From an uncultured Dokdonia sp. (GTDB taxonomy: Bacteria; Bacteroidota; Bacteroidia; Flavobacteriales; Flavobacteriaceae), in the NCBI GenBank assembly GCA_913060645.1, contig CAJXSW010000018.1, positions 1 to 35,901 of the forward strand: DNA of 35,901 nucleotides, written 5' to 3'. This document shows positions 65-33,432 of this stretch, piece after piece. Numbering within the stretch: position 1 is the first letter of the stretch; the number at the start of each line of letters is the position of its first letter. A program made the position numbers and the translations under genes. Below the pieces are notes generated by a model that did not search any database, had not been told where the DNA came from, and saw only the letters and a program-made list of their open reading frames with translations.

Positions 65-80
65 CGCTTTCGCGAAAGCG
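65..80. repeat. Dispersed palindrome, intergenic copy 1
   Basis: Perfect 16-base palindrome CGCTTTCGCGAAAGCG, 53 bases before the first gene of the window. The 133 bases upstream of that gene contain nothing else I can name; all three plus-strand frames carry stops near the left edge, so no upstream gene can be followed in. Confidence 0.9.
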
Positions 81-133
81 AAACAAAGCCACACATAGAT
101 GATAATAAGTTTTAAAACCTTTAGTTTTGCACC

Positions 134-976
134 ATGCTTGTATCTGCTGTGATTCCATGTTATAATGCACAATCTACCATAGTTAGAGCTGTTGATAGTT
201 TATTACATCAAAGCATTGCTATAGATGAGATTATAGTTGTAAATGACGGTTCTGAAGATAATTCTCTTCAAGTGTTACAAAACATAGCAAAAGAGAACGA
301 AAAAATTAAAATACTTAACCAAGAAAATAAAGGTGTTTCAAAAGCAAGAAATGTTGCGATTAATGAAGCTCGCGGCAAATTTATATTGACGCTTGACGCA
401 GATGATTATTTTGAACCTACATTTCTAGAAAAGGCAATTTTGAAGTTTGCTGAAGATGCAAATTATGGTGCCGTGATGTGTGGATATGTAAGAATTATTG
501 ATAACAAGAAAGTATTACCCTATATCCCCAGTGAAATTTCTTTAAAGTCCTGTCTATTTAATAATGGCGCACTTTCCTGTCTTTTGTTTAAAAAGAAAGC
601 AATAATTGAGGCTGGAGGTTACGATGAGAAAATGGTAGAAGGGTATGAAGACTGGGATCTTAACATTAGAATCTTAAAGGCTGGATTTACCTTTGGGATT
701 CTACGAGAAGTACTTTTTAATTATGTAGATACTCCAGGTTCAAGAACCTATACAGCTACTCCTAATGATATGGAGCTAAGGATGTATATGTATTATAAAT
801 ATAAGGATCTCTACCAGAAAAACGCTTCATATATTTACCAGCAATTAATAAGTCAAAACATACAATTAAGACGTCGCCAGAAAAAGGTAAAGCAATCAAT
901 GTCTTTTAAGCTAGGAGATAAAATAATAGATAGTTTGAGAGTTGTGAAGCATATTTTAAACTTTAAAAGACAGTAA
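134..976 (+). CDS. Family 2 glycosyltransferase
   Basis: A 280-residue GT-A fold glycosyltransferase of family GT2, expected to transfer a sugar from a nucleotide-sugar donor to the lipid-linked glycan at the cytoplasmic membrane. Seen: the N-terminal nucleotide-binding strand VSAVIPCYN, the VVNDGSEDNS motif (residues 35-44), the metal-binding DADD (88-91), and GYEDWD (170-175), where an acidic residue normally serves as catalytic base. The C-terminus ends in a basic helix with a SFKLGDKIIDSL tail that resembles tails of the genes at 2054 and 2908. The ATG at 134 puts the first beta strand right at the N-terminus, as is usual. Donor and acceptor cannot be predicted. First visible gene of the plus-strand operon; the next gene starts 5 bases downstream. 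Confidence 0.88.
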   Translation: MLVSAVIPCYNAQSTIVRAVDSLLHQSIAIDEIIVVNDGSEDNSLQVLQNIAKENEKIKILNQENKGVSKARNVAINEARGKFILTLDADDYFEPTFLEKAILKFAEDANYGAVMCGYVRIIDNKKVLPYIPSEISLKSCLFNNGALSCLLFKKKAIIEAGGYDEKMVEGYEDWDLNIRILKAGFTFGILREVLFNYVDTPGSRTYTATPNDMELRMYMYYKYKDLYQKNASYIYQQLISQNIQLRRRQKKVKQSMSFKLGDKIIDSLRVVKHILNFKRQ

Positions 977-981
977 CCGTT

Positions 982-1962
982 ATGATATCAATAATAATAG
1001 CGACCTATAATAGAGCTCCTTATATACTCGAAACCTTACAATCTATTGCACAGCAAACGTATGAGAACTTTGAGTGCATTATTGTAGATGATGGATCTAC
1101 AGATAATACAAATGAGATTGTAGCTTCTATCGTCGAAAATGATAAAAGGTTTACTTATACACTAAGGCCAGAGACACAAAAAAAAGGTGCAAATCATTCT
1201 AGAAATTATGGGTTTACACTTTCAAAGGGTGATTACGTAAAGTTTTTTGATAGTGATGACGTAATGTTACCCACTCATCTTGAAGTAAGTATTAATACCC
1301 TAGAAAAGAGTCAATATGATTTTGTAGTAGCAGACTGTATAAATTTTGATACTAAAGGACTTTTAGAAAGACCTTACAATATAGATCGTAAAAATTCACC
1401 TATATCTGCTCTACGATATGCGCAGTTTAAAACAGCCTGGATAACAAATGATTTATTAGTAAAAAGAGAATTTGCAAATAAACTAAAGTTTGAGGGAGAT
1501 ATTAGAGATCAAGCGAGTGAATACCAGTATAATATAAGGTTACTTTTGCTTACTACTAATGGTTTTTTAATAGATAAGATTCTTACACATAGAAGAATAC
1601 ACGATGATGGATTTGTAGTAAAAGCAAAAAAAGATATGTTGCGCTTTGACATAATGAATGCAGAGCTCTACTACATTACTGCAAAGTATGTTAAAGATCT
1701 TGCTCCGGAAGCGCTATTGAGATGGTTATTATCAAGTCACGTATTATTAACTTATAAAGTAGCAACTCAGAAAGTATTTCCGGAAAATGTTATAGGTGCA
1801 ACACTGTTTTTAGCGAGAATAAATGGTATAAGCGGATTGATGTATCCGCTATCTATTATTTCTGGCTATATTACAGGAAAAGGTTACAAATTAGCTAAGA
1901 TCGCGAGAGAACAAAGAAAAAATTTGATATTACGCTTTCGCGAAAGCGTAAAACTAGTTTAA
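982..1962 (+). CDS. Family 2 glycosyltransferase
   Basis: A 326-residue GT2 glycosyltransferase. Visible motifs are SIIIATYNRA at the N-terminus, IIVDDGSTDNT (33-43) and FFDSDD (88-93), which holds the metal-binding acidic triad. The C-terminal 100 residues are poorly conserved and probably contact the acceptor or membrane. It starts 5 bases after the preceding gene, so the two are likely co-transcribed. The last residues, RFRESVKLV, are encoded by a copy of the dispersed palindrome at 1933-1948, so the extreme C-terminus appears shaped by the repeat rather than by enzyme function. Substrate unknown. Confidence 0.87.
   Translation: MISIIIATYNRAPYILETLQSIAQQTYENFECIIVDDGSTDNTNEIVASIVENDKRFTYTLRPETQKKGANHSRNYGFTLSKGDYVKFFDSDDVMLPTHLEVSINTLEKSQYDFVVADCINFDTKGLLERPYNIDRKNSPISALRYAQFKTAWITNDLLVKREFANKLKFEGDIRDQASEYQYNIRLLLLTTNGFLIDKILTHRRIHDDGFVVKAKKDMLRFDIMNAELYYITAKYVKDLAPEALLRWLLSSHVLLTYKVATQKVFPENVIGATLFLARINGISGLMYPLSIISGYITGKGYKLAKIAREQRKNLILRFRESVKLV
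1933..1948. repeat. Dispersed palindrome, coding copy (frame RFRES)
   Basis: Perfect CGCTTTCGCGAAAGCG (flanking A and T extend it to 18 bases, 1932-1949), read as Arg-Phe-Arg-Glu-Ser at the very 3' end of the GT2 gene at 982-1962. Confidence 0.92.
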
Positions 1963-2053
1963 TGAAAATTTTATTAAAATAAAACCTGTAGTGTAACTTC
2001 TTCATAAAGTAAGTTGTTCTAGCAAAAATATACTTTACCTATTTTTATAATAT

Positions 2054-3768: not shown

Positions 3769-3773
3769 TTACT

Positions 3774-6764: not shown

Positions 6765-7915
6765 AAATTCTAACCGTAGCCATACCGAATCATCACTTTT
6801 TTCAATGGGTAAACCAGCTGGAAGAAGCTGGGTATGAAGTCTATTGGTTTGATATTACAGACAGTGGTCCGTCATCTCAAAAAATCCCTTGGGTTACACA
6901 GATTAAAGGATGGAAGCTCAAATGGGATTTTCCTCTAAGATTTAGAATTAAAGGTGCATTACCCAAATTATATGAGACCATTCAGCAATGGAATGAACAC
7001 GCTGTTGAGGACGCTTTCGCGAAAGCGTACCAAGAAATACGACCAGACATTATCCATTGTTTTGAGATGCAACTCTCAGGACTTCCAATACTTTCTGTTA
7101 TTCAAGATTTACCAGTTCCATTAATTTATTCCTCTTGGGGGAGTGATCTTTTTGACTTCAAACGATTAGGCGTTTCTCAAAATGCAGCAACGGCATTTTT
7201 AAAAAGAACAGATTACTTGATTACAGATTGTAAAAGAGATCAAGCTATTGCCAAAGCAAACGGCTTTGAAGAAACATTTTTGGGAGTATTTCCAGGCAAC
7301 GGAGGTTTGACTATAGAAGCGTCTTCAATAAAAAGGTTAGAACATAGAAATACTATTCTAATAAAGGGATATGATGACGGAGTAGGAAAGGCATCTATAG
7401 TCTTAAACGCTTTAGAACGAGTTGATAAGGCCATTCTTCAAGACAAGCAAATTATCATTTATAGTGCAGATCGCAGTATTGAAACACAGATAAAAAACTC
7501 AGAACGACTATCTTTACTAGCGATGCAAATCTACTCTCGACATTCATTTATAAACAACGTGCAGCTCCTTAAAGTGATGGGTAATAGCTGTATTCATATA
7601 GCAAATAGCCTTTCTGATGGAATGCCAAACGCGCTTCTAGAAGCAATGGGGATGGGCGCTTTTCCCATTCAATCTAATCCAGGAGGAGCAACAGAAGAGG
7701 TCATCACAGATGGGAAAAATGGTTTTCTTATTCAAGATCCATTAGATATTAATGGAATTGCAAATCTCATAGAAAAGGCACTAGATGACAAATCCCTAAG
7801 AAAGAGTGCACAGGAATTCAACACGGCATTTATTCGTAAAAATTATAATAGAACTATCTTACAATCTCAAATAGTTAGTTTGTACCAACAAGTTTATACT
7901 AATCGTAATTCCTAA
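6761..7915 (+). CDS. Family 4 glycosyltransferase
   Basis: A 384-residue GT4 enzyme. The N-terminus KILTVAIPNHHFFQW and the C-terminal SLSDGMPNALLEAMGMGAFP with SNPGGATEEV are typical; the Glu-x7-Glu pair appears as Asp-x7-Glu. Translation starts at a TTG at 6761 that overlaps the preceding TGA (TTGA), with no better ATG nearby. The central region includes DAFAKAYQ, encoded by a dispersed palindrome at 7012-7027. Its TAA shares one base with the ATG of the next gene. Confidence 0.85.
   Translation: MKILTVAIPNHHFFQWVNQLEEAGYEVYWFDITDSGPSSQKIPWVTQIKGWKLKWDFPLRFRIKGALPKLYETIQQWNEHAVEDAFAKAYQEIRPDIIHCFEMQLSGLPILSVIQDLPVPLIYSSWGSDLFDFKRLGVSQNAATAFLKRTDYLITDCKRDQAIAKANGFEETFLGVFPGNGGLTIEASSIKRLEHRNTILIKGYDDGVGKASIVLNALERVDKAILQDKQIIIYSADRSIETQIKNSERLSLLAMQIYSRHSFINNVQLLKVMGNSCIHIANSLSDGMPNALLEAMGMGAFPIQSNPGGATEEVITDGKNGFLIQDPLDINGIANLIEKALDDKSLRKSAQEFNTAFIRKNYNRTILQSQIVSLYQQVYTNRNS
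7012..7027. repeat. Dispersed palindrome, coding copy (frame AFAKA)
   Basis: Perfect 16-base palindrome (18 bases, 7011-7028, with the flanking A/T pair) inside the GT4 gene at 6761-7915, read as Ala-Phe-Ala-Lys-Ala, so in a different frame from the copy at 1933. Confidence 0.92.
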
Positions 7916-8808
7916 TGGATATTTCTTTCTTAATCGTTACGAGAAATAGGCCTGTAGACTTGAGACTCACGCTCGATAGGCTCAAAGAGATGATTGATCT
8001 AGACAATCATGAGGTGCTTGTGTTTATAGATGGCTGTGAGCAAACCACTCCATTAATTTCTGAATATCCTTGGGTAGGATGGAGTCAGGTTTCAAAAAGC
8101 ATAAGTGCTTCTCCAGCAAGAAATCATCTCTATAAAGGTGCACAAGGGACTATTTTTATTGGTTTAGATGATGATGCACATCCCATAAGTCGAAATTTTA
8201 TTGAGGAGGTAGAAGCACGCTTTCGCGATCCCGATAGCTATCGGGACGTAAATCTCGGTATCCTAGCTTTCCAAGAAGTTCGTGGTTTGTTTGTGACAGA
8301 TCAGGACGCTTTAAAGAATTGTGTGAAGAGTGATGTTTATAAAACAAATGATTTTGTAGGCTGTGGCTTCGCTGTAAGTAAAGAAGCCTACGAAGCCACA
8401 AATGGCTTCCCTTTATGGATGGATATTTATGGCGAAGAGTCTGCTTTGGCTATAGAGGTGATGGATGCTGGATATGATATTGTGTATGATTACCACCTTC
8501 AAGTAAACCATAGAGTAAACGTTCAGAAACGTAAAGTTATGGGCCGTAATTATTTTAGATTTGAGCACCAACTGCGTAACGTGTTGAATTATTATCTAGT
8601 GTATTACCCAAAACCAGCTCGTAGAATTCTAAGAACATTGCTGCATAATTTCAGGAAATATGCATTGAGTGATTGGACTTATTTTAAAGCATATTGGCGA
8701 GTTTTAATAGGCACACTTCTAAATATAAAAAGCACATTATCTTACAGAAAGCCAGTGCAGTTGTATACTATTGAGAAGAGGAAGCAATTAAGGGATTTAA
8801 AATATTAA
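7915..8808 (+). CDS. Family 2 glycosyltransferase
   Basis: A 297-residue GT2 protein: DISFLIVTRNRP at the N-terminus, SPARNHLYKGAQG, the metal-binding GLDDDAHP (84-90) and a later IYGEESALAIEVMDAGYDIVY segment corresponding to the catalytic-base region. The triple-Asp form and the TRNRP start match GT2 members common in capsule and exopolysaccharide loci. Residues about 102-111 (RFRDPDSYRD) are encoded by two joined palindromic repeats, directly after the metal-binding strand. The ATG overlaps the upstream stop by one base. Confidence 0.85.
   Translation: MDISFLIVTRNRPVDLRLTLDRLKEMIDLDNHEVLVFIDGCEQTTPLISEYPWVGWSQVSKSISASPARNHLYKGAQGTIFIGLDDDAHPISRNFIEEVEARFRDPDSYRDVNLGILAFQEVRGLFVTDQDALKNCVKSDVYKTNDFVGCGFAVSKEAYEATNGFPLWMDIYGEESALAIEVMDAGYDIVYDYHLQVNHRVNVQKRKVMGRNYFRFEHQLRNVLNYYLVYYPKPARRILRTLLHNFRKYALSDWTYFKAYWRVLIGTLLNIKSTLSYRKPVQLYTIEKRKQLRDLKY
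8218..8246. repeat. Composite of two palindromes
   Basis: CGCTTTCGCGA (8218-8228), a truncated copy of the dispersed palindrome, is joined without a gap to the perfect 18-base palindrome TCCCGATAGCTATCGGGA (8229-8246). Both sit in frame inside the GT2 gene at 7915-8808. From memory, the second palindrome resembles a repeat seen in several Bacteroidota genomes; it occurs once in this window. Confidence 0.85.
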
Positions 8809-11846: not shown

Positions 11847-13010
11847 ATGAAAAGCATCGGTTTTATACCCCTGCGTAAAGGCTCAAAAGGCATTCCAGGT
11901 AAAAACAAAAAGAAACTCCTAGGTCGCCCACTATTCTGCTGGGTCTTAGCTGAAGCTATAGCTTCACGTCTTGATACTATTTATATTTTTACAGATGATG
12001 AGGATATCATCGCTTTTGTAGAAAAGGAATATCACTGGACAAATAAAGTAAAAGCCGTACAACGTAGCGACGAGAGTGCTACAGATACTGCTTCTACAGA
12101 AATGGGGATGCAGGAGTTTGTAGCTGGTTTAAAAGAAGATTTTGATGTACTGTGTTTACTTCAAGCAACATCACCTTTTACAACTTATCAAGATATAAAT
12201 GCGTGCCTAGATGCAGTAGCGTCAGGTACGAATAATGATTCGGCTCTTACGGTGGTAAATACACACCGATTCACTTGGAATGCAGATGGAATACCTCAAA
12301 ATTATGATGTGTTTAATCGACCGCGTAGACAAGATTTTGATGGGTTACTTATTGAGAATGGAGCTTGCTATGTGACAACGCATGACGCTTTTCGCGAAAG
12401 CGGGAACAGAATCAGTGGTAAAATAGCTACGGTACACATGCCAGAGGATAGTCTTACAGAGATAGACACGCTGACCGACTGGAAAATCGTTGAGGAATTG
12501 CTAGCCGCTCGTTTAAAAACGAAAAAGCAAAGTAACCGAATTACACATCTTATACTTGATGTAGATGGTGTGTTTACAGATGGCTGTATTTATTATGGTG
12601 CAGAGGGCGAACTGATGAAAAAGTTTGATATGCGTGACGGTATGGGATTAGAAATTCTACGTCAATATGGGGTTGAGGTAATGGTGATGACTTCTGAGGA
12701 TTCTCAAATAGTAGCCAGCCGAATGAAGAAATTAAAAATTAAAGACGTGTTTTTAGGAGTGAAAGACAAGTATAGTCTACTTTCTAGAATTGCCACAGAT
12801 TGCGGGATTGATTTTTCTGAAATAGCATATATAGGTGATGACGTGAATGATCTTGCAAACATTTGTGCAGCAGGGTGGTCACTTACACCTGCAAATGCTA
12901 CGATGCCTATCAAGAACCACGCAGATATCATTTTACAAAACAATAGTGCAGAAGGAGCGATACGTGAGGCCTGTGACTTTATTATAAAATATAACAACCG
13001 ATATGAGTAA
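11847..13010 (+). CDS. neuA: CMP-nonulosonate (sialic acid-type) synthetase fused to KdsC-like HAD phosphatase
   Basis: A 387-residue bifunctional protein. Residues 1-225 form a cytidylyltransferase that activates a nonulosonic acid with CTP: FIPLRKGSKGIPGKN (6-20) is the nucleotide-binding loop, followed by LLQATSPFTTYQDI and ENGACYVTTHDAF. Residues 230-387 form a HAD phosphatase of the KdsC type: LDVDGVFTDG with Asp238 nucleophile and Asp240, MTSED (281-285), GVKDK and the acidic GDDVNDL (330-336). The phosphatase suggests that the synthase product is a 9-phosphate, as in the Bacteroides KDN and animal Neu5Ac routes. The synthase gene follows with an 8-base overlap. Which nonulosonate (Neu5Ac, KDN, Leg or Pse) cannot be settled. 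An altered palindrome lies at 12386-12402. Confidence 0.88.
   Translation: MKSIGFIPLRKGSKGIPGKNKKKLLGRPLFCWVLAEAIASRLDTIYIFTDDEDIIAFVEKEYHWTNKVKAVQRSDESATDTASTEMGMQEFVAGLKEDFDVLCLLQATSPFTTYQDINACLDAVASGTNNDSALTVVNTHRFTWNADGIPQNYDVFNRPRRQDFDGLLIENGACYVTTHDAFRESGNRISGKIATVHMPEDSLTEIDTLTDWKIVEELLAARLKTKKQSNRITHLILDVDGVFTDGCIYYGAEGELMKKFDMRDGMGLEILRQYGVEVMVMTSEDSQIVASRMKKLKIKDVFLGVKDKYSLLSRIATDCGIDFSEIAYIGDDVNDLANICAAGWSLTPANATMPIKNHADIILQNNSAEGAIREACDFIIKYNNRYE
12386..12402. repeat. Dispersed palindrome, altered copy with one extra T
   Basis: CGCTTTTCGCGAAAGCG: the 16-base palindrome with one T added in the left arm. It encodes part of DAFRESGNR in the cytidylyltransferase domain, so the two halves read as the AFAKA frame and then the RFRES frame. 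Confidence 0.8.
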
Positions 13011-14212: not shown

Positions 14213-15619
14213 ATGATTAAAAAAAATAAAGTTTTTATTCTTTTCCCAGATGGTGTGGGCCTACGCAACTTTGCTTTTACTAAGTTTAAAGAAGTGGGAG
14301 AAGCGCAAGGATTTGATATCACTTACTGGAATAACACGATATTTTCGTTAGAAGAGGAATTGGGTTATAAAGAAGTGAAGATTGTGAACACAAAGATTCA
14401 CCCTAAAACACCTACACTTAGTCACGCAAGGAAGAGGGTAGAACTTGCGCTTTCGCGAAAGCGTGAAAAGGATCATGTCTATCCTACCTATCGTTTTCCA
14501 TTGCAGTGGGATAGTATAAAGAAAGCCTTAAAAAGTGCTTTTGTAAAGTATCACGAAACGTTTAGTGCCACACCAAAGGGATGGCAACGAATAATGAACC
14601 AAATGCAAGCCGCCGAACGATCTACTGTTCGCTACCAGGAGCTTAAAGCACAACTAGAAGAACACCGTCCAGATATTGTTTTTTGCACCACACAGCGCGC
14701 CACACAGGCCATTGCACCTATACTGGCTGCAAAAGATTTAGGAATCAAAACTGCGTGCTGGATATATAGTTGGGATAACCTGCCTAAGGGAATGACCACC
14801 ATAGAGACAGATTACTATTTTGTATGGTCTGAGTTGATGAAGGAGCAGCTCTTACAGTATTATCCAAAAACGAGCGAAGAGCAGATATTTGTAACGGGAA
14901 CTCCGCAGTTTGAGCCTCATTATGATAGTAGTATTTTGCTTTCGCGAAAGCAATTTTGTCTAGAGCATAACCTTAGCGAAGAGACACGATATATTTGTTT
15001 TTCTGGGGATGATCAAACCACGTCACCACTGGATCAATATTATCTAGAAGATACGGCAATTGCAGTAAGAAAATTGAGAGAAGAAGGTGAAGATATAGCC
15101 ATTGTGTATAGAAAGGTCCCTATTGACTTTTCGGGTAGATATGATGAGGTTTTGGCTAACTATAGTGATGTCATAACACCTATAGATCCTTTGTGGAAAC
15201 CAATGGGCTTACAATGGAATCAAGTGATGCCTACCAAAGAAGATTTTGCTTTATTAGTAAATACCTGTCACCACTGCGAGCTTGTGGTAAACATATGCTC
15301 GAGTATGGTGTTTGACTTTGTGGCTCACGATAAGCCTACAATCTATCCAAACTATGAGCAGCCACAACTTAAAAAAGGAATACGTGATATAGGACAGAAC
15401 TATAAATATGTACATTTTCGATCTATGCCAGATTATGATACAAGTGTCACTTGGGCAATGAATAAAGAAGATATTTATGATGGAATTAAAGGCTTACTTA
15501 ATGGTAGTCTTAACCCAGTGCCTATTACAAAAAGATGGTTTGGGATTGTAAATAAACCAGAACAACCTGAGAAGGCTAGTGAGCGTATTTGGGAAGGGAT
15601 ACATCAAATTCTTGATTAA
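14213..15619 (+). CDS. Putative GT-B glycosyltransferase, possible nonulosonate transferase
   Basis: A 468-residue protein I cannot place in a named family. Visible: an N-terminal strand KVFILFPDGVGLRNF, a stretch DIVFCTTQRATQAIAPILAAKDLGIKT (154-180) followed by WIYSWDNLPKG and a VWSELMKEQLLQYYP helix with VTGTPQFEPHYD, then YICFSGDDQTTS opening a second domain and CSSMVFDFVAHDKPTIYP near the end. This layout is that of GT-B enzymes similar to CDP-glycerol glycerophosphotransferases and some capsule transferases. It follows the nonulosonate genes, so I infer it may use the CMP-activated sugar; the sequence alone does not prove it. Two palindrome copies lie within it. No membrane segments seen. 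Confidence 0.6.
   Translation: MIKKNKVFILFPDGVGLRNFAFTKFKEVGEAQGFDITYWNNTIFSLEEELGYKEVKIVNTKIHPKTPTLSHARKRVELALSRKREKDHVYPTYRFPLQWDSIKKALKSAFVKYHETFSATPKGWQRIMNQMQAAERSTVRYQELKAQLEEHRPDIVFCTTQRATQAIAPILAAKDLGIKTACWIYSWDNLPKGMTTIETDYYFVWSELMKEQLLQYYPKTSEEQIFVTGTPQFEPHYDSSILLSRKQFCLEHNLSEETRYICFSGDDQTTSPLDQYYLEDTAIAVRKLREEGEDIAIVYRKVPIDFSGRYDEVLANYSDVITPIDPLWKPMGLQWNQVMPTKEDFALLVNTCHHCELVVNICSSMVFDFVAHDKPTIYPNYEQPQLKKGIRDIGQNYKYVHFRSMPDYDTSVTWAMNKEDIYDGIKGLLNGSLNPVPITKRWFGIVNKPEQPEKASERIWEGIHQILD
14448..14463. repeat. Dispersed palindrome, coding copy (frame LSRKR)
   Basis: Perfect CGCTTTCGCGAAAGCG in the gene at 14213-15619, read in the third possible frame as ALSRKR (residues 79-84). Confidence 0.92.
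14937..14952. repeat. Dispersed palindrome, second coding copy in the same gene
   Basis: TGCTTTCGCGAAAGCA: the 14-base core is intact but the outer C/G pair is replaced by the compensating pair T/A, so the palindrome is still perfect. Read as LLSRKQ. Confidence 0.9.
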
Positions 15620-18242: not shown

Positions 18243-19230
18243 ACTAAGCCTTATCATTTGCACTTACATGCGACCAGATCCCTTAACAAGATTGTTGGAG
18301 TCCGTCATGGCGCAAACTCAAGTACCTGAAGAGATTTTAATTATTGATGGTTCTACAGATGATGATACGGGATCTCGCTTTCGCGAAAGCAGAAATAACA
18401 TTATAAGCTATCATAAAGTGCCAAAAGAATGTCGCGGACTTACGAAGCAACGTAATTATGGAATATCAAGAATCAATGACGAGATAGATATAGTTGCATT
18501 TCTTGATGACGACACGATTTTAAATCCAGATTATTTTGAGAACTTGGTTTCTACTTATGCTCAATATCCAAAAGCGGTAGGTGTAGGTGGTTATATTACA
18601 AACGAAGTTTCCTGGGAGAAGACAGAACAGGGAAAAGTTGAGGATTTAAACCATTATTATTACGATGGTTATAGGAGAAAGGAGAGCAGTCGCTACAAAC
18701 TAAGAAGAAAATTAGGGCTGGCACAAACTACACAACCAGCCATTTATCCTGAATTTGGTCATGGTAGATCTATAAGTTTTTTGCCACCTTCTGGTAAGAT
18801 TTATAAAGTAGAACAGTTAATGGGAGGTGTTTCTAGTTTTCCTCTTGCTGTTTTAAAAGAACATAAGTTTTCTGAATATTTTGAAGGTTATGGTCTCTAC
18901 GAGGATGCAGATTTTACATTGCGATTATCTAATATAGGAGATTTGTATGTGAATACAGCAGCACAATTAGAACACCATCACGATGCAGCAGGAAGACCTA
19001 ATAAATACACTTACGGTAAGATGGTCGTGCGCAATGGCTGGTATGTATGGCGAGTAAAACATCCCAAACCATCATTTAGGAACAAACTCAAATGGTATCA
19101 AATCACCGTATTGCTTACTGGTATTAGATTTCTGAATATCTTTACTACGAGTGAACGTAAAGAAGCATTCACAGAAGCAATGGGAAGAACCGTAGGTATA
19201 TTTAGTTTGCCTTTTAATAAACCTAATTAA
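18229..19230 (+). CDS. Family 2 glycosyltransferase
   Basis: A 333-residue GT2 enzyme: KLSLIICTYMRPDPL, ILIIDGSTDDD (36-46), RGLTKQRNYGI, the metal-binding FLDDDT (91-96), and a later GYGLYEDADFTLRLSN block with the likely catalytic-base Asp. It starts inside the previous gene (14-base overlap), indicating coupling. Residues 50-54 (RFRES), just after the DGSTDDD loop, come from a dispersed palindrome. Sugar specificity unknown; the long middle region (KYKLRRK type, rich in basic residues) may lie at the membrane. Confidence 0.86.
   Translation: MQQCKLSLIICTYMRPDPLTRLLESVMAQTQVPEEILIIDGSTDDDTGSRFRESRNNIISYHKVPKECRGLTKQRNYGISRINDEIDIVAFLDDDTILNPDYFENLVSTYAQYPKAVGVGGYITNEVSWEKTEQGKVEDLNHYYYDGYRRKESSRYKLRRKLGLAQTTQPAIYPEFGHGRSISFLPPSGKIYKVEQLMGGVSSFPLAVLKEHKFSEYFEGYGLYEDADFTLRLSNIGDLYVNTAAQLEHHHDAAGRPNKYTYGKMVVRNGWYVWRVKHPKPSFRNKLKWYQITVLLTGIRFLNIFTTSERKEAFTEAMGRTVGIFSLPFNKPN
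18376..18390. repeat. Dispersed palindrome, coding copy (frame RFRES)
   Basis: CGCTTTCGCGAAAGC: the 14-base core is exact, the left outer C is present but the right outer base is A. Read as Arg-Phe-Arg-Glu-Ser in the GT2 gene at 18229-19230, the same frame as the copy at 1933. Confidence 0.9.
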
Positions 19231-19778: not shown

Positions 19779-20887
19779 AATTACTCATCATATCTGATGC
19801 ACCTATTTTAAGTAATTCAGGGGAGAAAGAAGCGTACGCACCTTATGTGAAGGAAATGGATATATGGATGCAGCATGCTAGTGATGTTTCTTTTGTATGT
19901 CCGACTAAATATGATCGTAATCTTTTAACTCAAGCTTTTCAAATACAAGATTTTGAAGTTCAATCATTACGAAGACTGGAGTTTCATTCAGTATTATCAG
20001 CATTAATCTCTTTTCTAACCATTCCATATCAAGCCATATTGTTATGGAATACCATGCGCAAAGCAGATCATATTCATCTAAGATGTCCAGGTAATCTTGC
20101 TTTGCTAGCCAGTATAATACAGGTTACGCTTCCGCGAAAGCGAAAAACGGCTAAGTATGCAGGTAATTGGGATCCAAAATCCAAACAACCATTAGCCTAC
20201 AGCATACAAAAGTGGATTCTCTCTAATACATCACTTACAAAGAATATGCAAGTGCTTGTATATGGAGAATGGCCAGGGATGACAAAAAATATTAAACCTT
20301 TTTTTACAGCGAGCTATTACGATAATGAAAAGGAGCCTATAATAGATAGAGAATTTGAGCAGCCTCTAAAAGCGATATTTGTAGGTACTATGGGAGCAAA
20401 TAAAAGACCTTTTGAAACAGTACAGCTTATAAAATCTTTACGCAGCTCTGGATTAGATATTACCCTTGAGATGTACGGTGATGGGGCAGTGGTAGAAGAC
20501 ATCAAGTGGTATCGGAAAGAAAATGGGATTTTAAATCAAATCGTCATACGAGGAAACCAACCTGGGCATGTAGTAAAAGAAGCCTACAAAAATGCAGATC
20601 TTCTCATATTACTCTCCAAAAGTGAAGGATGGCCTAAGGTTGTCGCAGAGGCAATGTTTTGGGGTGTAGTTCCTATTGTCTCGAGTGTATCATGTGTGCC
20701 TTGGATGATTGGAAACGATAAGCGAGGTATACTCATACATGATACAGAACATATCGATGTTGAGTATTTAAGAAAACAGTTAACTAACAAAGAAGCTCTT
20801 GTACAAATGAGTAAAGAGGCCGTAGAGTGGTCTAGGCAATACACAATGGATACCTTTGCTCAAGAAATCAAAAAGCTATTACAATGA
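19775..20887 (+). CDS. Family 4 glycosyltransferase
   Basis: A 370-residue GT4-type protein. The N-terminus is KLLIISDAPILSN; the second domain begins KAIFVGTMGANKRPFETVQLI, and the donor-binding segment is SKSEGWPKVVAEAMFWGVVP with a Glu-x7-Glu pair. The N-terminal domain is divergent (HLRCPGNLALLASII, KYAGNWDPKSK), as in several flavobacterial capsule transferases. ATGA overlaps link it to both neighbours. A palindrome with one substitution at 20127-20142 encodes LPRKRK. Confidence 0.83.
   Translation: MKLLIISDAPILSNSGEKEAYAPYVKEMDIWMQHASDVSFVCPTKYDRNLLTQAFQIQDFEVQSLRRLEFHSVLSALISFLTIPYQAILLWNTMRKADHIHLRCPGNLALLASIIQVTLPRKRKTAKYAGNWDPKSKQPLAYSIQKWILSNTSLTKNMQVLVYGEWPGMTKNIKPFFTASYYDNEKEPIIDREFEQPLKAIFVGTMGANKRPFETVQLIKSLRSSGLDITLEMYGDGAVVEDIKWYRKENGILNQIVIRGNQPGHVVKEAYKNADLLILLSKSEGWPKVVAEAMFWGVVPIVSSVSCVPWMIGNDKRGILIHDTEHIDVEYLRKQLTNKEALVQMSKEAVEWSRQYTMDTFAQEIKKLLQ
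20127..20142. repeat. Dispersed palindrome, altered copy (one substitution)
   Basis: CGCTTCCGCGAAAGCG differs from the consensus at one base (T to C), which changes the Ser of LSRKR to Pro. It is in the same reading frame as the copies at 14448 and 14937. Confidence 0.75.
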
Positions 20888-23329: not shown

Positions 23330-24299
23330 AGGGAAGACGGTGACTACTATTGAGACCCTTAGTTTATTACTGAGGCAGGAAGGGTATGATGTTGAGGTAA
23401 CGTCAACAAAACAAAATAAGTCACTACGCATGCTTGATATGATGCGTGCATTATTGCGTTCTCGCAAGAGTATAGACACTGTTCTTATAGATACATATAG
23501 CACTGCCAATTTTTGGTATGCGGTGGTCATTACTCGTTTATGTAGAGCATTCAGTATTCCGTATATCCCAATTCTACACGGAGGTAATTTGCCAGAACGC
23601 CTAATTAGCAACAAAAAGACTTGTGAGAAACTCTTTGGTAGAGCAGCGGTAAACGTGGCTCCTAGTGGCTATTTATATAACGCTTTCGCGAAAGCGGAAT
23701 TCTCAAATATCACTTACATTCCTAACACCATTGAATTAGAGAAGTACCCATTTAAAGAGCGAACAGTATTTAAACCCAACTTATTATGGGTAAGATCATT
23801 TGCCGAAATTTATAATCCGCTTATGGCTATTAAAGTGCTTGAGAAAATACTTGAAAAGTATCCCGAAGCTACTCTAACAATGGTTGGACCAGATAAGGAT
23901 AGAAGTCTAGCGCGGTGTGAAGATTATGTGACAAATCATAATCTTCCTGTGAAATTTACGGGGAGCCTTTCTAAAGAAGCTTGGACATCTCTAGCGCAAG
24001 ATCATGATGTTGTTATAAGTACTACAAACTTTGACAATACTCCTGTGAGTGTGATAGAGTCAATGGCATTAGGATTACCTGTAGTATCTACAAATGTAGG
24101 TGGAATGCCATATCTTATTCATGACACTGTAGATGGTCTATTGTCAGCCCCGGAGAATGTTTCTGCTTTCTCAGAAAAGATAAGTAAGTTGCTTGAAAAC
24201 ACAGCTAGCACAAAGGAAATAGTGTTGAATGCTCGTCAAAAAGTAGAATCCTTTGATTGGAGCGTAGTAAAAGAGCAATGGCATAAAGTGCTCTGCTAA
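23283..24299 (+). CDS. Family 4 glycosyltransferase
   Basis: About 338 residues, GT4. KLLYVGNALSSKGKTVTTIETLS is the N-terminal loop, IPILHGGNLPERL follows, the second domain begins NLLWVRSFAEIYNPLMAIKVL, and TNFDNTPVSVIESMALGLPVVSTNVGGMP is the donor site, with Asp-x7-Glu in place of Glu-x7-Glu. The ATG at 23283 (a TTG at 23277 would add two residues) is inside the preceding gene, an overlap of 47 bases, larger than any other junction here. Residues about 134-138 (AFAKA) are encoded by a palindrome at 23681-23696. Confidence 0.86.
   Translation: MKRKKLLYVGNALSSKGKTVTTIETLSLLLRQEGYDVEVTSTKQNKSLRMLDMMRALLRSRKSIDTVLIDTYSTANFWYAVVITRLCRAFSIPYIPILHGGNLPERLISNKKTCEKLFGRAAVNVAPSGYLYNAFAKAEFSNITYIPNTIELEKYPFKERTVFKPNLLWVRSFAEIYNPLMAIKVLEKILEKYPEATLTMVGPDKDRSLARCEDYVTNHNLPVKFTGSLSKEAWTSLAQDHDVVISTTNFDNTPVSVIESMALGLPVVSTNVGGMPYLIHDTVDGLLSAPENVSAFSEKISKLLENTASTKEIVLNARQKVESFDWSVVKEQWHKVLC
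23681..23696. repeat. Dispersed palindrome, coding copy (frame AFAKA)
   Basis: Perfect CGCTTTCGCGAAAGCG in the GT4 gene at 23283-24299, read as Asn-Ala-Phe-Ala-Lys-Ala, the same frame as the copy at 7012. Confidence 0.92.
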
Positions 24300-27521: not shown

Positions 27522-27539
27522 ACGCTTTCGCGAAAGCGT
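27522..27539. repeat. Dispersed palindrome, intergenic copy
   Basis: Perfect 18-base palindrome ACGCTTTCGCGAAAGCGT in the gap downstream of sucC. It is not followed by a T run on either strand. Confidence 0.92.
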
Positions 27540-28981: not shown

Positions 28982-29012
28982 AATCTTCGTTTAAGATGCT
29001 TAATTTGCCTCG

Positions 29013-29043
29013 CAAAAATAACAAATGCGCCACGAGAGCGCAA
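29013..29043 (-). promoter_or_regulatory. Flavobacterial sigma-A-type promoter of sucC
   Basis: On the minus strand a TTG (29041-29043) is followed after 20 bases by TATTTTTG (29013-29020), an exact match to the Bacteroidota consensus TTG-N17-23-TAnnTTTG. The -7 element lies 31 bases before the sucC ATG, a suitable distance. Confidence 0.75.
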
Positions 29044-29074
29044 TAGTTATTGTGATTAATTATAAGTATTGATT

Positions 29075-29350
29075 TTATACAATTTCTGCACTCAGTCCTG
29101 CTTGTAAAAGTTTTGAGCATCGAGGCTCCAGATCTTTATACTCACCAGACTTTACAGAGCATTGCCCTTTGTAATGTACTAGTAACGCACATTGATGTGC
29201 TTGATTCTCCTCATGATCACATGCATAAATAAGGGTATTTATTACGTGGTCAAAAGTATTTACTTCATCATTATACAGAATAATCTCGTGTGATGGAGAT
29301 TCTTCTGTTAGTACGTCTACGTCTTCTTGATATTTTTCTTGATTACTCAT
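29075..29350 (-). CDS. clpS: ClpS adaptor protein
   Basis: A 91-residue adaptor that delivers N-degron substrates to the ClpAP protease, or ClpCP in this phylum. The core ILYNDEVNTFDHVINTL (24-40) contains the family's NDE-x-N-T/F signature, and the later HYKGQCSVKSGEYKDLE and LQAGLSAEI close the domain. The N-terminal 20 residues are acidic and variable, as is usual. The gene is preceded by an extended palindrome and then prmA; a TAAATTTG match to the -7 promoter element lies 20 bases upstream (29370-29377) but lacks an upstream TTG. Confidence 0.95.
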   Translation of the reverse strand: MSNQEKYQEDVDVLTEESPSHEIILYNDEVNTFDHVINTLIYACDHEENQAHQCALLVHYKGQCSVKSGEYKDLEPRCSKLLQAGLSAEIV

Positions 29351-29389
29351 AGCGTTGAGATTAATACTGCAAATTTACAAATTTTAGAG

Positions 29390-29413
29390 ATTACGCTTTC
29401 GCGAAAGCGTAAT
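29390..29413. repeat. Dispersed palindrome, extended intergenic copy
   Basis: The longest copy in the window: the 16-base core plus four matched flanking pairs gives a 24-base perfect palindrome between prmA and clpS. It could form a strong hairpin in the prmA transcript, though no T run follows. Confidence 0.92.
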
Positions 29414-29445
29414 TCTAAAAATTATTTATCATCAGAAATTTGAAA

Positions 29446-30306
29446 TTATCCTCTTTTTTCAAACTTACAAGCCACCCAATTATTGCGTTCATAATTACTT
29501 ACAAAGTAAAGTCCATGCTCATTGCACTTTTCTGAAATCAGCGGAATGTCTTCTGTATAGAAGCCACTTAATAAGAGTATGCCATCCTCAGAAAGGCAAC
29601 TCGCATATACACCGATGTCTTGTAATAGGATGTTGCGGTTTATGTTTGCGATAATGAATTCGTAATTTTTATCAGATAGCAAGGAAGCCTCACCTTCATA
29701 GGTCGTTATGTGCTTACAGTTGTTACGTTCTACATTTTCAATAGTATTAAGGTAACACCAGTTATCAATGTCTATCGCATCTATAGGTTGTGCACCTCTC
29801 ATTTCGGCAAGGATGGCGAGTACGCCCGTACCGCAGCCCATATCTAAGGTTTTCTTGCCAGCAACATCAAGTTTAAGTAGGTGCTTGATCATCATGTGTG
29901 TAGTCTCATGGTGACCCGTACCAAATGACATTTTTGGTTCAATAATGATATCAAATTCTACATCAGTTTTTTCATGAAAAGGTGCGCGTACGGCACACTT
30001 TCCATCTACTTCAATAGCTTCAAAGTTTTTCTCCCACTCTTCGTTCCAGTTTACTTGCTCAATTTCTTCGGCAGTATATGTGATTACAAATTCATCTGAA
30101 TTTAGAATCTGAATATCAGTAAGAAGTGCCGAAAAATCGACATCACCATTTGGGAATGCTTCTTCTTTCTGTATGTATGCAATCACACCACTAGTAGTTT
30201 CTGTAAAGCTTTCAAAACCAGCATAACCTAGCTCTGCAATGATAATTTCTGTAGCAGGGTCGCGAGGCTCAATAGTAAAGGTATATCCTAAGTAAATGGG
30301 TGTCAT
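29446..30306 (-). CDS. prmA: Ribosomal protein L11 methyltransferase
   Basis: A 286-residue SAM-dependent enzyme that trimethylates ribosomal protein L11. The N-terminal L11-recognition domain covers about 1-80; the catalytic domain shows PKMSFGTGHHETT (124-136), the SAM-binding TLDMGCGTGVLAILA (153-167), DAIDIDNW with the ribose-binding acidic residue, and ANINRNIL in the position of the motif IV loop. The ATG overlaps the stop of the upstream peptidase gene by 4 bases, so prmA is translated from the same transcript. Adjacent prmA and clpS is a familiar flavobacterial order. Confidence 0.96.
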   Translation of the reverse strand: MTPIYLGYTFTIEPRDPATEIIIAELGYAGFESFTETTSGVIAYIQKEEAFPNGDVDFSALLTDIQILNSDEFVITYTAEEIEQVNWNEEWEKNFEAIEVDGKCAVRAPFHEKTDVEFDIIIEPKMSFGTGHHETTHMMIKHLLKLDVAGKKTLDMGCGTGVLAILAEMRGAQPIDAIDIDNWCYLNTIENVERNNCKHITTYEGEASLLSDKNYEFIIANINRNILLQDIGVYASCLSEDGILLLSGFYTEDIPLISEKCNEHGLYFVSNYERNNWVACKFEKRG

Positions 30307-31910
30307 TCTTTTATAGTTTCTAAGTTATAAGATGCATTAGGATCAATAGTAAGTTTTATAGATCCGTTTTCTCCAGGCAAAAGTACGGTTTCTGAGTTGA
30401 TGAGAATCTCATCTTTTGCAGTAAAATCTACTCGAGCGTCCTCTATAAATTGCTCATTTTTAATCATAATTTTATGCGCGGCATTAATTTTAAAGTTCCA
30501 TCGAGCAAATCGCTGATTTTCAATCATCATATACGTATCAGGCTGTAGCATGTCATGTGTCATCTTTACAGCTCTGCCTGTGTGTAATGATCCCGCTCCC
30601 CATAATCCTTTGAGTGGTACGTTTGCTTTTATGTGATCAATATTAGTTGCGCTTAATTTTATAATGCTATTCACTTCATCTACTGATAGTGATGGATTGA
30701 GTGAAAACATAAGCCCTATAGTTCCAGTGACTAGTGGCGCGGCAGGTGATGTCGCTTGATACGGATTGTGAAATACTTCACCAGTATCCTTATAATTATA
30801 ATATTGGAAAATATCATTACCTGGAGCTACAATGTCTACGGTACTATCTAGATTATTGGTAGAGCTTAGGTATAGGGTGTATTCTTCATTTGGGTCATTG
30901 TTTTTAAAGCCGCCGGTACGTGATAAGTGATATTGTTGCTTCTCTGCATAATACTTCCCGTTTTTCTCTTCAATGAGAAGTCCATCTGAGATTTCATCAT
31001 TTTTATGCTGTACACTTCCTACAGATATTACATGTTCGTAAGCGCCTGGATATCTAAGTTGTTCTCCATTTGTAACACTATATGCAGCATTATGTGGTAC
31101 AGAAACAATTACGGTTCCTAGGTCGCGCATTTCATTAATCGCTTCCTGCGCAGTCTCATAATAGGTGCGTGATCCCCAGCTGCAATTAATCACTTTTGCG
31201 CCTGCTCTTGATAGTTCTAGTAGTTGGCCCAACTCTTTAAAGTTACCATAGGTGGTAGTGTATATTTGGCAGTCATAGCAAACTCCTGCGGCACCATATC
31301 CATTATCACCTTGAGCTGCTGCTATGGCAGCAGTGCTATATCCGTGACCTTTTGAAAGGCTGCTTTTTTTGTAAACGGTAGTTTTACCTTTGAATTCTGG
31401 ATCTTCTGGATCTATGTAACCGTCAGAAATTCCAATGGATACTTTAGGAGAGCCTGTGGTATAATACCAAGCCTGTGGTACACCGAGGAAATCATAATAA
31501 TCAAGAACCGCTTGGGCTCCGGTGTTCTTGCCAGTAGTGCTTGTAACGCCGTAATCATTAGGTTCATAAATTTGTAGCGATTCATTGGAGATACTCTCTG
31601 CAAATTCAAAAAGATCTGGAGCTAGATTCACCAATTCTTCTTGAAACGTTTTACTCTCTGCAATAACAAAGTATGTGCGTTTAAGTTTGTCTCGTTGCGC
31701 GTACTTAAATTCTTTTCTAAAGATTTTAACTCTATGCTTAGTAAACAACTTTTTTAGCCTCACATCATCTCCTAGGTAAGTGATAAGAGAGTCCTTTGTG
31801 CTTAAAGGTATCTCTACATTTATAGATGTACTGCGTATGTAAAAGCGATCTTCTTGTGCTTCTAGTAGGCAAGAGAATAGCAGTAAATATAAAATAATGA
31901 ATCTAGTCAT
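30303..31910 (-). CDS. Subtilisin-like S8 family serine peptidase
   Basis: A 535-residue secreted peptidase. Signal peptide MTRFIILYLLLFSCLLEAQ, a propeptide-like region up to about 150, then the S8 domain: Asp163 in SIGISDGYID, His189 in KGHGYSTAAIAAA, the oxyanion Asn274 in VPHNAAYS, and Ser388 in ATSPAAPLVTGTIGL in place of the usual GTSMAAPHVAG. A C-terminal beta-rich tail of about 110 residues follows; I see no clear T9SS sorting signal at the end. The segment GVCYDCQIYTTTYG may form a disulphide. Its start lies 8 bases inside the upstream lipoprotein gene, so the two are coupled. Confidence 0.9.
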   Translation of the reverse strand: MTRFIILYLLLFSCLLEAQEDRFYIRSTSINVEIPLSTKDSLITYLGDDVRLKKLFTKHRVKIFRKEFKYAQRDKLKRTYFVIAESKTFQEELVNLAPDLFEFAESISNESLQIYEPNDYGVTSTTGKNTGAQAVLDYYDFLGVPQAWYYTTGSPKVSIGISDGYIDPEDPEFKGKTTVYKKSSLSKGHGYSTAAIAAAQGDNGYGAAGVCYDCQIYTTTYGNFKELGQLLELSRAGAKVINCSWGSRTYYETAQEAINEMRDLGTVIVSVPHNAAYSVTNGEQLRYPGAYEHVISVGSVQHKNDEISDGLLIEEKNGKYYAEKQQYHLSRTGGFKNNDPNEEYTLYLSSTNNLDSTVDIVAPGNDIFQYYNYKDTGEVFHNPYQATSPAAPLVTGTIGLMFSLNPSLSVDEVNSIIKLSATNIDHIKANVPLKGLWGAGSLHTGRAVKMTHDMLQPDTYMMIENQRFARWNFKINAAHKIMIKNEQFIEDARVDFTAKDEILINSETVLLPGENGSIKLTIDPNASYNLETIKE

Positions 31911-32424
31911 TATCCTTAGTTTCAGATGGTGCGATAGTTTCTTTGAGAGAGTTTACATCTTTGATTAGTTGGTCAATTTGTTTTTCTTTATCAATGAGGT
32001 GTAAGGTAAGCTCCTCAATTTTTTTAAGAAGTAATGCATTCATGGCACCTAGTTCAATACCGTTTTCTTCAACTTCTACGGCAGACGGAATTTCTGGCAA
32101 ATGCCCATTTTTCTGAATGTAGGTTTCGATTTCGCGTAAGCGTGATAAATCATACCCATCTTTAAATACCGTATCTGCCCATTCCTTTATATCCACCTTT
32201 ATAGACTTAGCATGTATCTGGCCATTTACCTCAAGCTTATCTGTAGGTTCTTTTTTACCTATGCCCATATTGCCATTTTTTGTAATATAAACGGCTTCAG
32301 CTTCTTGTGAGTTATTAAGGAGAATAAGTGAGCCATCTTCTTGAGTGCTTGTGGTTACAGCTTGTTGCGAGGTACAACTACAGATGGTGAGGAGTAGGAG
32401 TAGTGGTGTAATACTAAATTTCAT
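31903..32424 (-). CDS. Small lipoprotein with flavobacterial tail/coiled-coil module
   Basis: A 173-residue lipoprotein: signal MKFSITPLLLLLTICSC with a lipobox Cys (Cys15 or Cys17). The middle, ITKNGNMGIGKKEPTDKLEVNG then IHAKSIKV, and the segment LREIETYIQKNGHLPEIPSAVEVEENG with GAMNALLLKKIEELTLHLIDKEKQI form a module normally found at the C-terminus of long secreted fibre-like proteins in this phylum. The final 40 residues are a coiled coil. In such proteins the module probably assists trimer assembly. Here it is almost the entire protein. It overlaps the subtilisin gene by 8 bases. Function unknown. Confidence 0.82.
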   Translation of the reverse strand: MKFSITPLLLLLTICSCTSQQAVTTSTQEDGSLILLNNSQEAEAVYITKNGNMGIGKKEPTDKLEVNGQIHAKSIKVDIKEWADTVFKDGYDLSRLREIETYIQKNGHLPEIPSAVEVEENGIELGAMNALLLKKIEELTLHLIDKEKQIDQLIKDVNSLKETIAPSETKDND

Positions 32425-32470
32425 GTGATAAAAGATTGAGCTCTAATGTACTAATACCAATTGATATAAA

Positions 32471-32503
32471 ATAAAAATGCGCTTCCATCTCTGGAAGCGC
32501 ATT
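32471..32503 (-). terminator. Intrinsic terminator of tpiA
   Basis: Perfect 11-pair stem AATGCGCTTCC / GGAAGCGCATT (32476-32486 and 32493-32503) with a six-base loop, followed on the minus strand by TTTTAT. It starts 24 bases after the tpiA stop. Confidence 0.9.
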
Positions 32504-32526
32504 GTCAATTCTTAAATTATTTGAGA

Positions 32527-33279
32527 CTATGCAAATGCATTTACAATATCAAAAAAGTCATCTGCTTTAAGTGCAGCTCCACCTATTAGTCCACCATCTA
32601 CATCTGGTTTGCCAAAAATTTCTTTAGCATTAGCAGGCTTTACAGATCCTCCATAAAGGATTGATACGTTTTCAGCTACGTCACTATTATATTTTTCAGC
32701 AACAGTTTTTCTTATAAACGCATGCATATCTTGCGCTTGCTCTGGTGATGCTGTTTCTCCTGTACCTATTGCCCATACTGGCTCATAAGCAAGAACAATA
32801 TTTGACCAAGCGCTTGCGTCTAAGTGAAATAATGCATTTTTGAGTTGGCTACCCACCACATTTTCTTCCTTTCCAGCCTTACGGTCTTCTAGTTCTTCAC
32901 CAAAACAGAATATTACTCTCATATCGTTTTTAAGAGCGCTATCTACTTTTTGAGCAAGTAGTTCATCACTTTCGTGAAAATAAGCACGGCGTTCACTATG
33001 GCCTAAAATCACTGTATCTACACCAATCCCTTTGAGCATACCTGCCGAAATCTCTCCAGTATAAGCACCACTTTCTGCTTGATGCATGTTTTGCGCAGCA
33101 ACAGTGATATTAGAGTCAGAAAGACTATCAAAAGCACTGTAAAGGTTTACAAATGTAGGAGCGATAATAACCTCTGCATTTCCTTCATTCTTCTTTTGTT
33201 TAAGTGCTGTAATTAAGGTTGCTGTAGCACCTAGGTCATTATTCATTTTCCAGTTTCCAGCGACGATATTCTTTCTCAT
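32527..33279 (-). CDS. tpiA: Triosephosphate isomerase
   Basis: A 250-residue glycolytic enzyme that interconverts dihydroxyacetone phosphate and glyceraldehyde 3-phosphate. All signature residues are present: Asn9 and Lys11 in AGNWKMN, His94 in ILGHSERR, Glu166 in AYEPVWAIGTG with the flexible loop 6, and the phosphate-binding ILYGGSVKPANA and GGLIGGAAL. Length is normal. The 5' region (33295-33314) contains a seven-pair hairpin, ATCTCTT/AAGAGAT, which might affect expression but has no known role. A terminator follows the gene. Confidence 0.98.
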   Translation of the reverse strand: MRKNIVAGNWKMNNDLGATATLITALKQKKNEGNAEVIIAPTFVNLYSAFDSLSDSNITVAAQNMHQAESGAYTGEISAGMLKGIGVDTVILGHSERRAYFHESDELLAQKVDSALKNDMRVIFCFGEELEDRKAGKEENVVGSQLKNALFHLDASAWSNIVLAYEPVWAIGTGETASPEQAQDMHAFIRKTVAEKYNSDVAENVSILYGGSVKPANAKEIFGKPDVDGGLIGGAALKADDFFDIVNAFA

Positions 33280-33412
33280 TATAGTTCTTTTTTTATCTCT
33301 TAAAACAAAGAGATATGGTTAGTAGTTCATTCCAGAAGCCTCAATTATGAAAACTAATAATGTAGGATAACATATAGTTTTGAAAAGGCGTATGTGTTTT
33401 ACTTTGTTGTGT

Positions 33413-33432
33413 TTCGCTTTCGCGAAAGCGAA
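33413..33432. repeat. Dispersed palindrome, intergenic copy
   Basis: A 20-base perfect palindrome (TTCGC, then the core, then GCGAA) in the 245-base gap between tpiA and the ABC permease gene. The rest of that gap holds only the tpiA 5' region and AT-rich sequence. Confidence 0.92.

Follow-up and report, generated by a model that had tools for sequence, protein, structure and literature searches.

The 35.9-kb window analysed here, the whole of a stretch of DNA from an uncultured Dokdonia sp. (own genome code G000), carries a palindromic 14-mer, GCTTTCGCGAAAGC, that belongs to a chromosome-wide array with a density of one site per 3.5-7 kb. The array is confined to three Flavobacteriaceae genera: Dokdonia, g11 and g210. 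Our interpretation, held with rather less than even confidence, is that the word is a recognition array maintained by a DNA-handling process on the kilobase scale, most likely as a palindromic DNA-uptake signal.

Abundance and distribution of the palindrome

To an earlier sequence-only reading, the frequency of the 14-mer in the window could not be due to chance, and the controls agree: ten exact matches were found where none is expected, and the word was absent from 100 of 100 dinucleotide shuffles. Eight of the ten copies extend to the perfect 16-mer CGCTTTCGCGAAAGCG. In the genome of G000 (219 contigs totalling 3,112,495 bases; completeness 89%), 705 copies were counted, which rules out a cluster local to the window, the alternative that the same reading had named. 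The 14-mer reversed without complementing occurs 0 times in G000, and palindromes of the same composition average 0.00-0.03 per sample. The shuffles and the same-composition palindromes together rule out chance or base composition as the origin of the word.

The proposed check in related genera returned hundreds of copies in g11, in g210 and in all 18 Dokdonia genomes (g1; 369-905 copies, own genome included). A larger genome does not always have more copies, with 903 in the 5.5-Mb congener G011 and 905 in the 3.3-Mb G003. Among 18 genomes from other genera of the family, G027 (g11) has 578 copies, G029 has six and the remaining 16 have none, and no copy was found in any of the 23 genomes from other families of the order. 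When the 16-mer was counted across the family (299 genomes, G000 among them), high numbers appeared only in g1 (503, 630), g11 (495, 579) and g210 (153; 408 when 14-mers are counted), with 11-13 copies in three further genomes, 1-4 in thirty and none in 261 of the 299. Within the class (395 genomes, own included), seven genomes hold any copy and only the own genome holds more than two. Similarly, across 80 named sucC loci the 14-mer is present only in the two labelled Dokdonia, L005 (98% SucC identity) and L015, on which ground genus g1 of the window is taken to be Dokdonia.

Much of the occurrence at 1-4 copies is probably DNA received from carriers, because most of these copies sit in genes common to several genera. 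Twenty stretches from 14 of the 30 low-copy genomes were inspected. Thirteen (9 genomes) are cation-efflux-like genes (CusA/CusC-like; gene names here and below were assigned by eye unless Pfam-backed), three have another gene in common and the remainder differ; one Fur-family gene was confirmed by Pfam. The cation-efflux-like genes of L085-L090 and L092-L098, found across Flavobacteriaceae genera, hold Dokdonia-type palindromes, some at fixed spacing (933 nt, ∼2.45 kb), and these are a possible tag of the donor. In L089 and L090, a CusC-like gene has a longer divergent stretch in place of the palindrome near the signal peptide.

A scan for dispersed over-represented 10- and 12-mers, which needs four copies per ∼21 kb and covered 72 of the 80 named loci (at least 10 kb each), placed the Dokdonia word first among 12-mers and second among 10-mers. 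The sole comparable case was a cluster of over-represented 10- and 12-mers in L040 (Mesonia hippocampi), which is probably a local repeat group.

Spacing, conservation and form of the sites

The sites are more evenly spaced than random placement would give. Within a 142-kb portion of G000, gaps average 3.6 kb with a coefficient of variation (CV) of 0.37, compared with 0.97 under random placement; none of the 38 is shorter than 1 kb, where a quarter would be expected. Gaps below 1 kb number 1 of 47 in G000 (expected 11.7), 5 of 150 in G016 (38.4), 1 of 43 in G012 (8.6), 0 of 23 in G006 (4.9), 2 of 27 in G009 (6.0), 1 of 26 in G008 (5.9) and 0 of 37 in g11 (6.7). The arrays of G000, G006, G008 and G009 are largely common, so these sets are not independent. 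In G230 (g210), none of 99 gaps over 727 kb falls below 1.2 kb (15% expected). Evenness is weakest in G012 (CV 0.74, p 0.018) and, at p 0.13, in a sample of 160 kb from G230. Spacing is also looser in another stretch of G016, 140 kb surrounding a cassette array (see below) and overlapping one earlier sample (4 of 38 gaps below 1 kb, 9.2 expected, p 0.019). Thirty-two 20-kb samples from the complete chromosome of G016, 12 of them adjoining and 20 spread out, contain 171 sites with a variance-to-mean ratio of 0.54 (p 0.017 versus Poisson). The same samples show no trend by eye against GC skew, so the suggested check for origin-terminus bias revealed none; the two emptiest contain a 14.9-kb giant open reading frame (ORF) and the cassette array, respectively.

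Copies with one or two mismatches look like working members of the array, not ruins, because they lie in its gaps and the array becomes less even when they are moved. Their median distance to the nearest perfect site is 1.6-4.4 kb, compared with 0.9-1.9 kb for random points, and a pooled rank test places them in the gaps between perfect sites with p 3e-16. Random relocation made the array less even in 8 of 8 sets, significantly so in six; the two that are not significant when taken alone are G009 (p 0.16) and G230 (p 0.37). Adding the imperfect copies did not lower the CV in G000 (0.408 to 0.452) or G230 (0.78 to 0.81). Their placement away from perfect copies leaves the idea that they are redundant leftovers unsupported.

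Orthologous comparison provides further evidence of maintenance. G000 was compared with three relatives, and the aligned sites are identical in 21 of 25 cases for the relative at 93% identity, 22 of 22 for that at 90% and 19 of 21 for that at 87%; the corresponding frequencies for random 14-column windows are 0.56, 0.35 and 0.29. Pooled, 62 of 68 aligned sites are intact versus ∼28 expected, and identity drops to background within 12-30 nt of the site centre. The six changed sites carry 1-4 substitutions each. Four sites are present only in a relative: two (G009, G008) correspond to the same place with one substitution in G000, and two align with gaps in divergent stretches. Some site positions are old: all 11 Dokdonia genomes examined, out of 18, have a site in comEC at one shared codon position (RFRES), and so does G230. 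The corresponding place has no site in the two g11 genomes and in six genomes with few or no copies; this case was met through position lists, not a gene survey, and is therefore no evidence that comEC is special. Coincidence with Dokdonia sites amounts to 1 of 6 alignable sites in g11, 2 of 5 in g210 (one of them comEC) and 1 of 2 in G012.

Across five sets, 105 of 227 sites lie outside ORFs versus ∼20 expected, with 101 of 202 in Dokdonia and g11 combined (∼18 expected); genic and intergenic counts are approximate, because ORF calling simply took the longest frame. The 122 sites inside ORFs occupy all three frames (68/27/27), AFAKA being the commonest translation. Many intergenic sites are near gene 3' ends, with 57 of 116 end-to-site distances at most 30 nt. 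This proximity, together with the palindromic form and the intergenic enrichment, might recommend a mobile palindromic element (of the repetitive extragenic palindromic or miniature inverted-repeat transposable type) or a transcription terminator. Yet 0 of 68 aligned G000 sites differs by insertion or deletion, the two gapped relative-only sites lie in divergent stretches, and more than half of the sites are in open frames within genes, in each of the three frames. The 3' flanks are A/C-rich on both strands and not T-rich, and no extended pairing was seen in them. We therefore regard this explanation, the mobile form of which had been proposed from the sequence, as extremely improbable. An intrinsic terminator or known RNA in particular finds no support in the flanks, which are not T-rich, in the genic sites, or in an Rfam scan of the window at gathering scores, which gave 0 matches.

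Alignment of 114 intergenic sites extends the consensus to TTACGCTTTCGCGAAAGCGTAA, after which the 3' flanks stay A/C-rich and G-poor to ∼+23 nt on both strands before returning to background; genic sites have a similar flank preference. Paired positions in the two arms of the flanks agree no more often than with shuffled flanks, save single positions at z 2.0-2.5. Because the flanks are symmetric without arm covariation, a symmetric, dimer-like protein probably reads each half separately, and selection for a long hairpin is improbable. Together with orthologous conservation and even spacing, this sustains the sequence-only proposal of selection for a symmetric structure, in the form of selection for, or drive of, a symmetric site.

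The deviations themselves have a pattern, with 56 of 73 single departures from the 16-mer at the outermost base and the inner positions nearly invariant (orthologous copies counted more than once). A similar outer-base bias is described for highly iterated palindrome 1 (HIP1) in the accessible text of PMC4390886, and a HIP1-like origin, in which DNA methylation and mismatch repair make and keep the word, would also suit a highly iterated GC-rich palindrome. The search for the Pfam methyltransferase families PF00145, PF01555 and PF02086 covered 14 carriers and 12 genomes in which the word is rare or absent (G029, with six, among the latter). PF02086 is commoner in carriers (7 of 14, compared with 2 of 12), PF00145 was found in 6 of 14 and 8 of 12, and for PF01555 two genomes in each group exceeded the cut-off. 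No family of the three is common to all carriers, and G006, G009 and G281 have no match over the cut-off in any of them; the search extended to no further methyltransferase family. Almost no variation is seen in the inner 14 bases either, and a mutation-repair bias alone predicts no 1-kb exclusion. The methylation origin raised in the sequence-only reading thus found no backing in these families, and we consider it very unlikely.

The perfect and imperfect copies in the window are as follows.

66..79 (16-mer 65-80): perfect 14-mer, upstream of the ORF at 134-976
1934..1947: perfect 14-mer, within the ORF at 982-1962, translated RFRES
7013..7026: perfect 14-mer, within the ORF at 6761-7915, translated AFAKA; four substitutions at the aligned place in G006
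8218..8233: interrupted copy, CGCTTTCGCGA..., then a second palindrome, CCCGATAGCTATCGGG, at 8230-8245; intact at the aligned place in G006
12388..12401: near-match with two mismatches, ORF at 11847-13010; falls in a gap of the perfect array
14449..14462: perfect 14-mer, ORF at 14213-15619, translated LSRKR
14938..14951: perfect 14-mer with T/A outer pair, ORF at 14213-15619; 489 nt from the 14449 copy, the sole window pair below 1 kb
18377..18390: perfect 14-mer, ORF at 18229-19230, translated RFRES
20128..20141: near-match with one mismatch, ORF at 19775-20887
23682..23695: perfect 14-mer, ORF at 23277-24299, translated AFAKA
27524..27537: perfect 14-mer, between the ORFs at 27031-27366 and 27791-28981 (sucC by eye)
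29395..29408: perfect 14-mer with the full 22-bp consensus TTAC...GTAA, between the ORFs at 29075-29350 (clpS-like by eye) and 29446-30306 (prmA-like by eye)
32128..32141: near-match with two mismatches, ORF at 31903-32424
33416..33429: perfect 14-mer, between the ORF at 32527-33279 (tpiA by eye) and the permease ORF at 33525-34655, both on the minus strand

All ten exact copies that had been read from the sequence are present, the last two displaced by one position in that reading (true starts 29395 and 33416). Its three altered copies exist as well (8218, 12388 and 20128); the near-match at 32128 was missing from its list. The copy at 14938 reads TGCTTTCGCGAAAGCA and, as had been claimed, remains palindromic with its T/A outer pair. 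The intergenic gap next to sucC carries a site in several Dokdonia species, and the site at 33416 is at the same place in G016, G002 and G003, with flanking identity of ∼76-79%.

Other repeated sequences were met alongside the array. The second palindrome CCCGATAGCTATCGGG sits inside the interrupted copy of the main word. Counted as CCGATAGCTATCGG, this second palindrome is present in 94 of the 299 genomes of the family and is a separate, sparser thing than the main palindrome, because it reaches at most 59 copies per genome. In L129, short sequences at ∼9009-9053, 11562-11607 and 12239-12353 have many scattered matches of 74-100% in G006, G008 and G009 and represent further dispersed repeat families.

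Processes that could maintain the array

A spaced array with an exclusion zone would arise if the underlying process acts on pieces of a few kilobases, rewarding the first site and ignoring the second. In the mechanism proposed here, a symmetric, presumably dimeric, protein or complex would read the word on double-stranded DNA, and about one site per few kilobases would be rewarded, with little gain from a second site within ∼1 kb. Natural transformation, with preferential uptake and recombination of kin DNA, may be this process. Fragments bearing sites would be imported more often and sites would accumulate by drive, making the word a putative palindromic counterpart of the Haemophilus and Neisseria DNA uptake sequences. 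Those sequences are significantly evenly spaced, lie partly in ORFs and are enriched in non-coding DNA, according to the accessible part of PMC1939737, whose author notes that Karlin and colleagues read the spacing as a sign of roles in replication, repair or compaction. Within Flavobacteriaceae, as its authors classify it, Riemerella columbina prefers its own DNA in natural transformation; in the text available of that study, whether A-rich 10-mers act as uptake signals was left open (PMC7965970). A sharp candidate word in a related genus of the same order makes this question directly testable. ComEC is intact in 26 of 26 genomes, including 14 of 14 carriers.

The array also provides a clock for foreign DNA. 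At 2,850,871-2,876,454 of G016, a tyrosine-recombinase gene (Pfam Phage_integrase) is followed by mostly same-direction ORFs parted by long repeats, of which 12 copies were found in 18 kb at intervals of 1.3-2.3 kb (L300 with L372). With its orphan ORFs, this region has the look of a chromosomal integron-like cassette array whose repeats are unusually long. It shows as a 25.6-kb hole without any site, perfect or with up to two mismatches, while both sides carry about one per 3 kb. The probability of so long a gap in 140 kb under random placement (p 0.015) is post hoc, the hole having been chosen because it is empty. The polysaccharide locus in the window has a normal site density, and such density in a variable locus fits exchange among carriers, as we infer. 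In the same locus, the ORF at 11847-13010 joins a cytidylyltransferase to a HAD-type phosphatase domain (Pfam) and the next ORF is NeuB-like, which suggests a nonulosonic acid step.

Phages can hold the array, perhaps from living in carriers. In a viral collection, the 16-mer was found in 41 stretches, of which 17 have at least two 14-mers. One phage-like lineage (capsid and portal genes, Pfam) carries 2-3 sites, 4.5-6.5 kb apart, in 5 of 5 contigs with capsids 99-100% identical; L160 has the same tail gene plus an integrase gene, and by look the lineage is temperate-phage-like. A second contig (L175, L192, L195) has six copies and, by eye, tail-like genes. No sites were found in 30 distant capsid relatives (20-58% identity, some contigs 4-6 kb long), nor in two fully sequenced Nonlabens phages, for which it is not established whether the host carries the array.

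These observations bear on chromosome architecture, in which a genus-specific nucleoid or segregation protein would bind the palindrome about every 4 kb and organise the whole chromosome. We regard this as possible. Architecture-imparting sequences (AIMS) and the binding of Noc/ParB-type proteins to 16-bp palindromes are models for such sites. The perfect symmetry of the word, the half-sites without arm covariation and the sequence preference spanning ∼60 bp are all consistent with a bound protein; so are the near-uniform cover of the G016 chromosome without an origin-terminus trend, the even spacing, which a protein with kilobase reach would also yield, and the presence of the word in phages. 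However, cover is not enforced on new DNA, because the cassette array is empty and the larger congener G011 has no more sites than G003. Fourteen nearly invariant bases also seem far stricter than 700 sites would require, and no candidate protein was found, the ParB family not having been searched.

Carriage by phages would equally suit a two-way Chi-like site, that is, a stop or regulatory signal for a double-strand-end nuclease that shields kin DNA and adapted phages, the palindrome acting from either side. Known Chi sites are short and asymmetric, and symmetric recognition over 14-22 bp is unlike them; the two Nonlabens phages without sites count against this role as well, subject to the status of their host. 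Kilobase-scale protection would give even spacing, and one site per 3.5-7 kb resembles the density of Chi in E. coli, given as 1008 copies in ∼4.64 Mb in the accessible part of PMC1939737. On balance, we find a Chi-like role unlikely.

Several points weigh against an uptake signal. ComEC does not discriminate, because the 12 genomes in which the word is rare or absent all have it as well. The uptake sequences covered by the accessible text of PMC1939737 are not palindromic. No stretch of raised identity, such as recombination tracts might leave, surrounds the sites in the between-species comparison made here, and intergenic sites are not clearly enriched in G230 (4 of 25 versus 2.4 expected). 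At least one temperate-phage-like lineage has sites every 4.5-6.5 kb, which uptake alone does not predict. No report of competence in Dokdonia appeared among the matches listed, and no receptor or reader protein was found; no whole gene-content comparison or ParB-family (PF02195) search was made.

Three features lean towards drive by uptake: the empty cassette array, the similar copy number in 3.3- and 5.5-Mb genomes and the accumulation of 14-base sites by the hundred. The symmetry and the phage carriage lean towards an architectural or Chi-like role. Of the roles proposed from the sequence, an uptake signal and a site for a symmetric DNA-binding protein are the two best readings, with architecture a close rival of uptake. 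Dokdonia strains are cultivable, so the palindrome can serve as bait for isolating its reader.

Relation to known systems

To our knowledge, few bacterial groups are known to mark the whole chromosome with one word, the examples being uptake sequences, HIP1 and Chi. The Dokdonia palindrome adds another whole-chromosome word, in Bacteroidota, and it is unusual in its perfect long symmetry and in a spacing that follows a measurable rule, to which imperfect copies for the most part also keep. None of the open-access papers searched contains the 14-mer string (subscription papers were not covered), and for TTTCGCGAAA in open-access papers no related title appeared among the matches listed. Searches on highly iterated palindromes in Flavobacteria and on Nonlabens phage with Dokdonia found no open-access literature; those on HIP1-type words in Bacteroidetes, Dokdonia palindromes and flavobacterial uptake sequences, and broader ones, gave nothing on this word among the matches listed. 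Our provisional view, short of an even chance, is that this is a previously undescribed chromosome-wide marking system of three genera, with a ∼1-kb exclusion rule. A putative dimeric reader, working from both sides of the long palindrome, would distinguish the DNA of kin, both the chromosome and adapted temperate phages, from foreign DNA during uptake or in protection from nuclease, independently of methylation.

The ParB sites (parS) and Noc-binding sites (NBS) are 16-bp palindromes containing TTTC and GAAA and are bound by symmetric proteins. The Dokdonia word is likewise a palindrome containing TTTC and GAAA, but the two are separated by 2 bp rather than the 4 bp of parS and NBS, and it has about tenfold more copies than NBS. 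Compared with E. coli Chi, the density is similar; Chi has 8 bases and is asymmetric, whereas the Dokdonia word is a long palindrome.

Cyanobacterial HIP1 (GCGATCGC) is the closest system by form. Both words are palindromic and hugely over-represented, with outer-base deviations the commonest. The Dokdonia word differs in its length of 14-22 bp, against 8 bp for HIP1 and 10 in some cases, in its even spacing with exclusion, and in having no methyltransferase common to all carriers in the three families tested; the accessible part of PMC4390886 names a methyltransferase specific for the word as the companion of HIP1.

The uptake signal sequences (USS) of Pasteurellaceae and the DNA uptake sequences (DUS) of Neisseriaceae resemble the Dokdonia word in numbering hundreds to thousands of copies, in even spacing, and in occurring in ORFs yet being enriched between genes. 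They are also particular to a genus or family, and their carriers have ComEC. Unlike them, the Dokdonia word is palindromic, longer (14-bp core, 22 bp extended) and present once per 3.5-7 kb, its host belongs to Bacteroidota, and it is carried by phages; a role in uptake is suggested by analogy. Given the methyltransferase result, the word is not filed under HIP; because known uptake sequences are not palindromic and uptake is here argued from sequence, it is not filed under uptake sequences either, although by analogy it would work most like these.

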